In this document: positions 27,511 through 31,942 of the stretch, in pieces
How positions within the stretch are numbered: the stretch's first letter is position 1
Layout: every line of letters begins with the position of its first letter
Translations under genes and position numbers: made by a program
Assembly (NCBI GenBank): GCA_913060615.1
Contig: CAJXUL010000011.1
Coordinates: 1-32,257, forward strand
DNA: 32,257 nt
Source: an uncultured Gammaproteobacteria bacterium
GTDB lineage: Bacteria; Pseudomonadota; Gammaproteobacteria; Pseudomonadales; Azotimanducaceae
Direction: 5' to 3'
Notes under the pieces: generated by a model
Told to the model about the DNA's origin: nothing
Databases searched by the model: none
What the model saw: the letters and a program-made list of their open reading frames with translations, nothing else

Positions 27511-27678
27511 AAAAACTCCTAAATAGACAAAAATTGAAAGGACCGACAAGGTGATAAATCTCCTCCAGCCTCTCCAAACAGAGAGTTAGAACTATTAGGC
27601 GACAAGCCCAACCTGTCAAGTAAAGGAGATTGGCGACACAAAAACGGCGAAGAACACTGAAGGCCCAACTTAAAATGA

Positions 27679-27766: not shown

Positions 27767-29749
27767 TTAGCCATTGGAGCTACCAAAGTGATCTGACCTG
27801 AAGCGAATAATTGGGCGCTGACCCAAAATACGTCGCAAGATATGGTTCATAGTGGCAGGATCGCGTTCAAAATCATTATGACGACGACTGGTAGAATTTT
27901 TATTCCGCTGCACATTGCCTTGGCTAATGACGAAATCCACATCGTCTATATTTTCAACACCCCGCTCGTCAACGTCTCGACTCAAACCCAAAAGAGGTAC
28001 GACAGAACCGTCGCTGCAACCTTCTTCCAATACTCTAGAGATCAGATGAAGAATTGATTTACCGTAAATACCGGCAACATTGTCCTCCAACTCGAGATTT
28101 TCGCTCAAGTTATATACCGCTATATCATCAATGTTCGACATTTGGGGCCGATACATAGTTGCATAAGTGTCTATGGTTAAAGTTGGCGCCAGCAATGACA
28201 GTGTAGCGATTTTCGGCTTGGCGCTGTTATTAACTAGCGAATTTAGGAGGTGGCCCAAAAGCAAGCTGCCGGCGCCGTGTCCAGCAAGGTGAATTTTCTT
28301 ACCCTTTAAACCTTGCGAAGATTCTACCAAATACTGAAGGAATGTATTCGCCACCTTTATCCCGTCACCCTTGGGCGCAAACCCAGACTCCGCACCGTAT
28401 TTCATTTCTCGCCATAGCGCCCTACCGCTGCGACCCAACAAAATCTCTGTTAGACGATCTGAAAGCTCATGACCCGAACCCAAGCGCGCTTCGGATTCAT
28501 CGCTACGATCGGACAAAAGACTTTTCACATCATCAACAAAACCGGAGCCATACATAAAGTGATAGGGGTAAATACGGTTAGCTTTGAAGACAGGCTGCAT
28601 GACTGCAATTTTTTGCGCGCAGGCTTTTGGGCTACTAAAGCTATCGTGAGCATAAAACAATATATGATCGTAGCTGTCGCTGTCAGCGACTCGCTTTGCT
28701 GTTTCTGCGACGTCCTCCGAGCTACTAAAGTAACGCCCGCGATTATAGAAATTGCCATCATCTAAATGAACGAAGTGGCCCATAATCTCATTACGACGTG
28801 GCGCACGTTGAATCGATAACCCCGCAGAAATAGCTTCACGCGCGTGGCCTGGGAAAACTTGAGGTGTAGGTAGTGCCAACTGAAACACCCACGCGTCTCT
28901 GATGTTTTCCTGCCAATCCTCATACGACCAATGGGCCACACCTTTGTTACCCCAACCTTCACCGCGAGAATTTTGCACATAGAAGCCTGTGGCGTCGTAA
29001 CCTACAATGGCAAACGCATGACCACCGGTGGCAGCATAAGTGTTGCGCCAGTTTATTTTCCCTTTGGCAATTTGATTCATTGCCCAACCCTTATGGATCA
29101 TTGCAGATACATAAATAGCGCCTGTTTCATTCAACGCTGCATGGAAATCCGCTATCGACAAACTCACCCTGTAATAAGCGCCAATGGTTACCCTCCTGGC
29201 TTCTTCGGCGCGATAGGCTGTTAATTGGCCGGGCTTATTAGTGGTGAAGGACCAATCGGTACTGGAACAAACACCCATATTAAACAGGCCTTTTATGGCA
29301 CCTCTACAACTTGCGCCTACATAATCCTCACCAGGCCAATCATCAAATTTCTTCGCCATTTCATAAAGCATGCGCGGACTAACTACAATTTCTCGACCTT
29401 GCTTTCGAGCCAACAAATTGAGTACAGCCGCCAATGCAAAACCTGCGCATGCCCCTTCGGTTTTTTGATCAAGAACATTTAAATAGAGCGGTGGATGTAT
29501 TTGTGGTGGCAGGGGTTTCAACGAAGGGCTGTATATACGATCGCGGAAATCTAAAACATCTGGCACCAGAGAGCCCAAATACCCATCATTGGTCTCTGAG
29601 CCCATTTGTTCATAATCTAATGCAACCGAGCTTTCGCCCGGCGCAGCTTGATCTTTCAACAACGTAGATACATCAGATTTAGAATCTGTATTCGCCTTCT
29701 TACCTGGAACGGTATTTTTACTGCCGTTTTTTGTTACCTTGCTTTTCAT
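27767..29749 (-). CDS. Papain-like (C1) protease fused to an alpha/beta-hydrolase-like domain
   Basis: A 660-residue protein with a Lys/Ser-rich N-tail and no signal peptide, so apparently cytoplasmic. Residues about 60-295 form a C1 peptidase domain. Gln95 and Cys101 in LDQKTEGACAGFALA are six apart as in papain, His244 is in GGHAFAIVGYD, and Asn260 is in VQNSRGEGWGNKG, so the catalytic set is complete. Residues about 310-660 resemble a lipase/alpha-beta hydrolase: strand-turn KIHLAGHGAGSLLLG matches a nucleophile elbow, but the serine position of G-x-S-x-G is Gly492 (codon GGC). The second domain is thus probably inactive or a binding module. ATG 29749 has GGGGG 5 nt upstream. It diverges from a winged-helix/TPR regulator. 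Function unknown. Confidence 0.82.
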   Translation of the reverse strand: MKSKVTKNGSKNTVPGKKANTDSKSDVSTLLKDQAAPGESSVALDYEQMGSETNDGYLGSLVPDVLDFRDRIYSPSLKPLPPQIHPPLYLNVLDQKTEGACAGFALAAVLNLLARKQGREIVVSPRMLYEMAKKFDDWPGEDYVGASCRGAIKGLFNMGVCSSTDWSFTTNKPGQLTAYRAEEARRVTIGAYYRVSLSIADFHAALNETGAIYVSAMIHKGWAMNQIAKGKINWRNTYAATGGHAFAIVGYDATGFYVQNSRGEGWGNKGVAHWSYEDWQENIRDAWVFQLALPTPQVFPGHAREAISAGLSIQRAPRRNEIMGHFVHLDDGNFYNRGRYFSSSEDVAETAKRVADSDSYDHILFYAHDSFSSPKACAQKIAVMQPVFKANRIYPYHFMYGSGFVDDVKSLLSDRSDESEARLGSGHELSDRLTEILLGRSGRALWREMKYGAESGFAPKGDGIKVANTFLQYLVESSQGLKGKKIHLAGHGAGSLLLGHLLNSLVNNSAKPKIATLSLLAPTLTIDTYATMYRPQMSNIDDIAVYNLSENLELEDNVAGIYGKSILHLISRVLEEGCSDGSVVPLLGLSRDVDERGVENIDDVDFVISQGNVQRNKNSTSRRHNDFERDPATMNHILRRILGQRPIIRFRSDHFGSSNG

Positions 29750-29982: not shown

Positions 29983-31527
29983 ATGAACGCGTTCGAATTC
30001 GGAGAATGGAAGTGCGACCCCAAATCTCTGACCATCAAATCTAAGGGTGCTGTTGTAAAGTTAGAACTGAAGGTAATGACCGTTCTACAAATACTTGCAG
30101 CCAAAGCCCCAAACGTTGTTAGTCAAGATGAACTAATGACTGCTGCGTGGCCTGGTGTCATCGTCAGTGACGGAGCCATTTATAGAGTCATCGCTCTTTT
30201 AAGACGTGCTATGAATGACCGCAAAAAACCGCACAAATATATTGAGTCAATTCCTCGAGTTGGCTATCGCCTCAAGCACAAAATAAACATCGAAAAAGAC
30301 AAAGTGCCGCAACTTTCACCCAAAGAACGACAGCGTCGAATAAGCCTAACCATTGCTACTAAAGGTAAAAATAATCACCCCTGTCTGGAAGAATCTATCA
30401 CTATGATTGAACGCCATGTCAGCTGGAACAGCCCAACATTTTCAATTCAGCGACGGCGCGCAGTCGAACAAAGCGACTATCAGGTCGAAATCAGCCTTAG
30501 CAAAAACGAGAAGGACATAGAATTACAGTGGCAAATATTCTGTAAAGAAGAAAATGAATTAGTTTATTCAGGCCTACACAATGAGACCAGACTGTCCTCT
30601 GAGCCATTGCCACCAAGGGTGGCGGAGTTAGTCGCTGAGAGCATAAGCAAACAATCTCTACGTCATCGCCATAAAGAAATAGGAGACACCAGTGACCTTA
30701 GATATTTGAACTACTGGGATCTCATAAATTTTGGCGAACGATTCGTTTCCATGCACACAGAACAAATTGAGTTGAGGCGTAAATCCCTCAATTACGTTGT
30801 AAAAATGGCACCAGCTATAGCCGTGGGTCACTCAGCACTCGGTAAACTGTTGTCTTGGGAGGTTATTAACGGTGTTGCCAAGAATACTAAGCAAAATATC
30901 AATCTGGCGATTGAGTGTGCGGCACGGGCCATTGATATCGACCCTAACGCCCCCTATGTAACCAGTTCTTGTGGCCTCATAAATAGCCGAATGGGTAAAC
31001 ACAATTTAGGCATCGAACTGTGTCGTCAAACCTTGTCGACGGCTCCTTCAGCTCATGCCAAAGACGCTCTGGCAATGTCTCTTAGTTTCGCAGGAAAGCC
31101 GGATGAAGCCATCGATTTATATCTGCAAGTATTTGCCAGCATGCCTGCGGGCCAGATTTTCCATTTTGGAAAACTCGTCCTACCTCTTGTACAAAGCGGT
31201 CAAATTGAACGTGCTCTAGAGTATGCAGACCTAGGGACTATTTATCTTCCCGGAGATTTCTTTTCGTGGCTCCTACGTTGTAATGTATCGGCGCAATTGG
31301 GAAATTTAGACGGCGCGAAAGCAGACCTTATTCAAGCACAAAAACTGATGCCTTCACTAAACCTACTCAATATTATCTCAAACATAGAACGTAACTATGG
31401 TCGTACCGAAAGTCAGAAGCGATGCCTTACATCCGGATACAAAAGGCTTCTAAACGACAATTCAGGCAAGTACACCGACCCAGAAAAACCTTATCTCACG
31501 CATCAAGAACAACTCCGAACGCATTGA
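29983..31527 (+). CDS. OmpR-type winged-helix regulator with TPR region (CadC/HilA-like)
   Basis: A 514-residue transcription regulator. Residues 1-100 are an OmpR/PhoB-type winged helix without a receiver: LELKVMTVLQIL, VVSQDELMTAAWPGVIVSDGA, VIALLRRAMND and the wing YIESIPRVGYRLK. A linker and a mixed middle domain follow. From about 290 onward there are TPR-like helical pairs (IECAARAIDIDPNAPYV, ALAMSLSFAGKPDEAIDLYL, ALEYADLGTIYLPGDF). No membrane helix is visible, so it resembles soluble HilA-type activators more than membrane-bound CadC. It diverges from the papain-like gene and is the obvious candidate to control it (inference). The Shine-Dalgarno before ATG 29983 is weak. Confidence 0.88.
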   Translation: MNAFEFGEWKCDPKSLTIKSKGAVVKLELKVMTVLQILAAKAPNVVSQDELMTAAWPGVIVSDGAIYRVIALLRRAMNDRKKPHKYIESIPRVGYRLKHKINIEKDKVPQLSPKERQRRISLTIATKGKNNHPCLEESITMIERHVSWNSPTFSIQRRRAVEQSDYQVEISLSKNEKDIELQWQIFCKEENELVYSGLHNETRLSSEPLPPRVAELVAESISKQSLRHRHKEIGDTSDLRYLNYWDLINFGERFVSMHTEQIELRRKSLNYVVKMAPAIAVGHSALGKLLSWEVINGVAKNTKQNINLAIECAARAIDIDPNAPYVTSSCGLINSRMGKHNLGIELCRQTLSTAPSAHAKDALAMSLSFAGKPDEAIDLYLQVFASMPAGQIFHFGKLVLPLVQSGQIERALEYADLGTIYLPGDFFSWLLRCNVSAQLGNLDGAKADLIQAQKLMPSLNLLNIISNIERNYGRTESQKRCLTSGYKRLLNDNSGKYTDPEKPYLTHQEQLRTH

Positions 31528-31558: not shown

Positions 31559-31942
31559 TTATAAGTATGAAGCCCCTGAACAAACCCCGCCCATCACGCG
31601 AAGACGTCCAGCAGAACTCATCAGACGTGTGCGCACCTTAGCAACTCGCGCTTCGGTCTGCACACAGGCTTCAGTAAAATCTTCAACTGAAATCGTAGAT
31701 CTGCCGTCTTCTCGGGCGAAATTTGCCGCTAGGTGACCGGCTCTACGCGCACAGCTCAGGGTTTCTTCCAAGAGATAGGAGTGCTCATCAAAGTTCACTG
31801 CGTTACCTTCTACATGTCCGTAGTAGCCCCTCTCTCGCGCGACTTCAACACACAGCTCATCCATATCCATAGCTGCTCTAGCACCAAAGGCTTGCCAAAA
31901 CTGTGCTGCATACTGATCTGCTAAGTTAATTTGGTTTTCCAT
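31559..31942 (-). CDS. Hypothetical 127-aa helical protein
   Basis: I do not recognise this protein. It is helical and soluble with no signal peptide, and its C-terminus is Gly/Ser-rich (VMGGVCSGASYL). The segment ARRAGHLAANFAREDGRSTI followed by SVEDFTEA resembles the helix-loop-helix pattern of histone folds and AAA+ lid domains, but on its own that is a weak match. The start is good: GAGGAAA lies 7 nt before the ATG. It is convergent with the regulator gene, 31 nt apart. A possible small ORF upstream overlaps its start by 22 nt, so translational coupling is possible. Confidence 0.7.
   Translation of the reverse strand: MENQINLADQYAAQFWQAFGARAAMDMDELCVEVARERGYYGHVEGNAVNFDEHSYLLEETLSCARRAGHLAANFAREDGRSTISVEDFTEACVQTEARVAKVRTRLMSSAGRLRVMGGVCSGASYL

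Follow-up and report, generated by a model that had tools for sequence, protein, structure and literature searches.

A protein in which a papain-like protease shares its chain with a hydrolase-like domain that lacks the nucleophile raises the question of whether this combination is a system of its own and what a cell might gain from the apparently dead half. Such a protein is encoded in a stretch of 32,257 nucleotides (here called the window) from an uncultured marine gammaproteobacterium of the Azotimanducaceae. The gene lies at positions 27767–29749, as the initial annotation had placed it, on the minus strand, with an ATG at 29749 and a stop at 27767, and codes for a two-domain protein of 660 amino acids; full-length relatives agree with these ends, and a TTG five codons upstream of the ATG is a possible alternative start. 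One copy is present in the genome. Domains, residues, conservation, neighbours and selection were computed for the present analysis. Residues 1–63 are hydrophilic and disordered in the AlphaFold2 model (pLDDT<50), and neither a signal peptide nor a membrane segment was found in the N-terminus (highest 19-residue hydropathy 0.12), which agrees with the lack of a signal peptide noted earlier. As judged from the sequence, the protein probably has no secretion signal and appears cytoplasmic.

The first half is a papain-like (C1) protease domain of about residues 64–292 (28874–29560, minus strand), including a xylellain-type leader with the family consensus DxPDxRDxxYxP. It matched Pfam PF00112 above the cut-off (E=8.7e-6), and xylellain (PDB 3ois) was the top match both by sequence (E=3.5e-14) and by fold in a Foldseek search with the AlphaFold2 model (E=5.5e-18, probability 1.00). 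All four residues claimed for this domain were found on the minus strand: the oxyanion glutamine Gln95 (29465–29467), invariant in the close family; the nucleophile Cys101 (29447–29449), a cysteine in all members covering the site; and His244 (29018–29020) and Asn260 (28970–28972), both invariant in the close relatives that cover them. With a C1 fold and Gln, Cys, His and Asn in order, the domain belongs to the xylellain-like C1A peptidases and is predicted to be an active protease. A tryptophan after Asn-Ser (the NSW motif) is common in papain family C1A and is not essential for membership. In the close-family alignment, Arg262 (28964–28966, minus strand) takes the place of this tryptophan in the window protein and its sister only, and the rest of the close family has Trp. 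The same change from NSW to NSR occurs separately in Paracoccus proteins with a pseudo-hydrolase domain.

The second half, about residues 316–657 (27779–28804, minus strand), was modelled with good confidence (pLDDT 89, pTM 0.91). Structure prediction and Foldseek, run on both halves, related it at a remote level to alpha/beta-hydrolases: the best match was a lipase of A. fulgidus (2zyr; E=1.6e-3, probability 1.00, TM 0.37), followed by DDHD/Nir domains, cutinases and CALB, and no PDB entry matched at E<0.001. Pfam DUF900, Abhydrolase_6 and Ser_hydrolase matched members of the hydrolase-domain family. These remote matches point to an alpha/beta-hydrolase fold with a central parallel sheet that carries the nucleophile elbow. 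The elbow reads GHGAG at residues 490–494, as had been reported, with Gly492 encoded by GGC (28274–28276, minus strand), and none of Ser, Asp or Cys occupies the nucleophile position. Asp556 (28082–28084) and His624 (27878–27880), both on the minus strand, are invariant and kept in the window; from their order, and for Asp556 also from its position after strand 540–548, they are the probable acid and histidine of a triad. The loop after modelled strand 362–367 (residues 368–372, 28634–28648, minus strand), probably the oxyanion-hole loop, reads HDSFS here versus HGGLN in the family alignment. The hydrolase domain of the window is therefore expected to be inactive. Matches to MetW and CARF in the C-terminal half were weak, below the cut-off or without one, and were taken as chance.

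Relatives were sought in one genome per species. Most of the 47 that were found are full-length two-domain proteins, with identities of 38–51% save for one sister at 88%, and they come from Gammaproteobacteria, Desulfobacterota, Planctomycetota, Nitrospinota, Campylobacterota and Alphaproteobacteria. Distribution is patchy, since matches occurred in 8/392 sampled genomes of the order, 18/369 of the class and 15/399 of the phylum. Within the genus of the window, 2 of 40 species hold the gene, the other being the sister ('K189A clade bacterium', genome G016, locus L003, which contains locus L002). No whole-protein relative was present in viral contigs and one partial C1 match was found among phages, so a phage origin was set aside. 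Because the family is conserved and dN/dS, computed for all but a few pairs, is about 0.06–0.09, the observation is far beyond chance. The fusion itself turned out to be widespread, with the hydrolase intact in almost all relatives.

The initial annotation would have been given up if Ser were common at position 492 and the window the only exception, and in the close family this is what was found: Ser in 45 of the 46 aligned members covering the site versus one Gly, in the window. As the sole departure from Ser among close members, the window thus brought the earlier reading near to refutation. A rival explanation starts from here: Gly492 could be a base confined to this draft genome, of recent date or an error, with the protein an ordinary member of a bifunctional family of protease-hydrolases and nothing depending on the change. 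The codon is GGC in the window and AGT in the sister, and Ser to Gly needs a single base from AGC; Asp556 and His624 are kept; and the window alone shows no sign of accelerated decay, as window and sister differ at only four near-invariant positions (92, 395, 401 and 492) since their split. What speaks against an isolated accident is the state of the sister. It retains Ser492 but has also lost HGGLN, carrying HDSFS like the window, and each of the two has 22 of 87 near-invariant hydrolase columns altered; the next most altered hydrolase domain among close members has 8/82. In the protease, 7/91 near-invariant columns are altered in the window (p=0.002 against the hydrolase, Fisher test) and 6/91 in the sister (p=0.0008). 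The domain was already altered in the common ancestor, because the sister with its serine shares this extent of change and the lost loop. Ser492 would then have been lost after the split, of this pair in the lineage of the window only. Between window and sister, dN/dS is 0.064 for the C1 domain and 0.081 for the hydrolase domain, and the latter value indicates that the altered domain is still maintained by purifying selection. The main doubt is that Gly492 in the window depends on a single nucleotide in a draft genome, which may be a sequencing or assembly error, whereas the decay common to both species does not.

Further evidence came from wider relatives, which have a GHSAG-type elbow nearly throughout, except for ten alphaproteobacterial proteins. 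These fall into two sets. The first, with the elbow C/V/A-D/E-G-A-G, comprises proteins of Sinorhizobium meliloti, S. chiapasense, S. terangae and S. mexicanum, Rhizobium CC1099, Palleronia and genome G1053; the second, with GFGMG, SVGLG or SAGLG, comprises those of Roseivivax and two Paracoccus and has a trypsin-like domain at the N-terminus in the two members scanned and a similar region in the third. All ten have Gly at the nucleophile position and have lost the HGG loop, and the triad histidine is gone where alignable, while Cys101, His244 and Asn260 are retained in every one. By profile comparison, the C-terminal domain of each set is homologous to that of the window (99.8%, E=1.4e-27; 97.2%, E=3.1e-11). 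The window is thus not a lone pseudo-hydrolase, a view overturned by these ten relatives. Among the wider relatives, loci L058, L059 and L067 encode trypsin-C1-pseudo-hydrolase fusions, each adjoining a divergently oriented gene whose product, about 2300 amino acids long, looks secreted.

Parsimony on a C1-only tree gave three losses of the serine, or two leaving out the window. A single clade for both alphaproteobacterial sets was not rejected (p-AU 0.416); the two clades were not counted as surely separate losses since one common loss may suffice, and the number of independent losses is therefore given as at least two. The residue at the elbow of such hydrolases sits in a strained backbone conformation, and glycine is for this reason a plausible replacement for the nucleophile. 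That every other loss of Ser in the family likewise gave Gly weighs against a private or erroneous base at 492, and together with the altered sister it makes this explanation unlikely.

Taken together, the hydrolase would have become non-catalytic at least twice, with the protease kept. The repeated loss of the one and retention of the papain triad in the other suggests that the protease is the part that must stay working. What had been described as an active protease tied to a pseudo-enzyme holds in so far as an intact papain triad is combined with a nucleophile-less domain, a combination that recurs in alphaproteobacteria; it does not hold as a separate undescribed system, being a derived state of a larger family. 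A more far-reaching formulation is that the same Ser-to-Gly change, at least twice and perhaps three times, made the hydrolase a pseudo-enzyme with the papain triad never lost, and that the domain serves as an evolvable targeting or allosteric module, in some lineages together with a fused trypsin. This is put forward tentatively, with the chances for and against it not far apart.

At the window locus, a CadC/ToxR-like winged-helix plus TPR regulator is encoded divergently and upstream of the protease gene (29983–31527, plus strand). Within the genus, a close homologue of this regulator occurs in just one further species, the other holder of the protease gene (75% identity), and the acetolactate-synthase-like gene on the other flank is present in 36 of 40 congeners. 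The segment 27768–32099 (taken without regard to strand) is common to the sister at 78.5% DNA identity. In two further congeners that were compared, it was not found beside this flanking gene, and DNA similarity to the window ends at 27620 or before; protease and regulator accordingly came, or stayed, together as a segment. It is probable, from this arrangement, that the regulator controls the protease gene. Counts of promoter and terminator sites were no higher than in shuffles. Next to the regulator lies a gene for a 127-amino-acid protein (31559–31942, minus strand), conserved in the sister at about 95% (tblastx); its match to a histone fold is weak and did not reach the cut-off (NCBIfam archaeal histone, E=0.054).

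The company of the relatives gives an idea about a possible function. A GH108 muramidase with a peptidoglycan-binding domain lies directly downstream in 7 of 46 close-family loci, from at least three places in the tree (two of the seven were identified by Pfam and the others grouped by BLAST), and besides GH108 no other conserved operon partner was found among the 46 loci. Beyond these, GH19 is fused in L050 and L052 (Pfam) and L051 (similarity) and adjacent in L105 (Pfam) and L106 (similarity), a muramidase (PF11860) is fused in L080, CHAP is adjacent in L063, L107 and L057, and an annotated amidase is adjacent in L062. No peptidoglycan hydrolase was found beside the window gene or beside most close-family genes. 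Several other arrangements were seen: in L099 and L100, Amidase_2 is joined straight to the alpha/beta-hydrolase domain of the family, without C1; in L063 and L106, a GDSL-lipase-caspase fusion follows the protease gene, which in L106 is preceded by a GH19-like enzyme; and in L004 and L015, the gene immediately upstream of the family member resembles that of a zinc metalloprotease (HExxHxxGxxHE motif, recognised by eye). An attack on the envelope is favoured because relatives often adjoin, or are fused with, peptidoglycan hydrolases, and in envelope breakdown its members are probably partners of enzymes that cleave peptidoglycan. On this indirect evidence, the protease might cleave peptide parts of envelopes and the intact hydrolase their lipid or ester parts.

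The best explanation, which is considered rather probable, is that the window protein is a pseudo-hydrolase-bearing member of a family of xylellain-type proteases fused to alpha/beta-hydrolases, in which the protease is the retained activity and the hydrolase a non-catalytic module, with a role in envelope breakdown. Most members of the family seem to have two competent enzymes, with Cys101-His244-Asn260 and Ser492-Asp556-His624 as triads. In the ancestor of window and sister, the hydrolase would have lost the conserved oxyanion loop together with roughly one in four of the near-invariant residues, and in the lineage of the window the nucleophile would have followed, with Ser492 changed to Gly. 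Since the domain still folds and purifying selection persists, a non-catalytic role in binding or positioning is proposed; most likely, the module would position the protease on the substrate of the ancestral hydrolase, or bind this substrate, and the protease would be the activity retained. The same outcome would have been reached at least once more, in alphaproteobacteria. Envelope breakdown might take place after lysis, after export or in the producing cell itself, and expression would here probably be governed by the divergent CadC-like regulator. No visible route to the envelope was found, the protein having no signal peptide and the genome no TssC.

The same lack of a signal peptide would suit another explanation, by which the protein is an intracellular conflict (suicide) effector, a latent cytosolic protease triggered by infection or damage, comparable to multi-peptidase conflict systems. 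Some rhizobial relatives adjoin caspase, trypsin and YEATS-associated genes, those of Paracoccus and Roseivivax carry a fused trypsin, and alphaproteobacterial effectors have been described in which lysozymes and papain-like peptidoglycan peptidases are coupled with trypsin and NucA (PMC7159879). However, no NTPase, EAD1, NucA or sensor gene was seen as a conserved neighbour of close-family genes, the window gene has only a transcriptional regulator for company, and there was no PADLOC match (best E=0.059), by which a known anti-phage defence system was also rejected; the explanation is accordingly regarded as doubtful. An antibacterial effector that is injected into rivals through a type VI or comparable secretion machine is very improbable. 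The mix of lipase-like, papain-like and lysozyme domains resembles known effector chemistry and papain-like effectors such as Cpe1 are known (PMC12136450), but TssC occurs in only 11 of 49 holder genomes and is missing in 38, including the window genome and the sister, and neither a PAAR/VgrG/Rhs domain in the members scanned nor a conserved immunity-like neighbour was found.

Beyond the preferred reading, a retained protease with a non-catalytic hydrolase module, the analysis draws attention to a protease-hydrolase family that is widespread, has no name and keeps company with peptidoglycan hydrolases. Eukaryotes are well known to have pseudo-hydrolases. In this bacterial family, one fused domain exists in apparently active and in dead form next to a constant protease, so that the role of the dead domain is directly testable. 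In the literature searched, no account was found of a family that combines C1 with an alpha/beta-hydrolase, nor of the loss of nucleophiles within it.

Several known systems share parts of this architecture. The Nir DDHD domain, which was among the top Foldseek matches, is non-catalytic. Like the second domain of the window, it has an alpha/beta-hydrolase fold, as have the NDRG proteins, which have lost the catalytic triad and are described as non-enzymatic (PMC7022630); unlike the window protein, both are eukaryotic and are not fused to a protease. The toxin Cpe1 is, as here, a papain-like cysteine protease of Gram-negative bacteria, but is accompanied by an immunity gene and by parts for T6SS/CDI delivery, and neither was seen for the window family. 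In the alphaproteobacterial 'System 3' conflict systems, which are predictions too, papain-like peptidases and lysozymes are coupled with peptidases of the trypsin type; the surroundings of the rhizobial and Paracoccus relatives are similar, whereas the NucA, EAD1 or STAND NTPase partner of 'System 3' is neither present at the window locus nor conserved in the close family. Xylellain, the short C1A protease of Xylella fastidiosa, has the same C1 fold and the conserved leader, but is a single domain without the fused alpha/beta-hydrolase. Multidomain bacterial C1A peptidases have been noted, without analysis, in PMC10380794, and those in plasmid records are annotated only as 'C1 family peptidase'; as in the window family, the C1 domain is joined to other domains and the distribution is sporadic.
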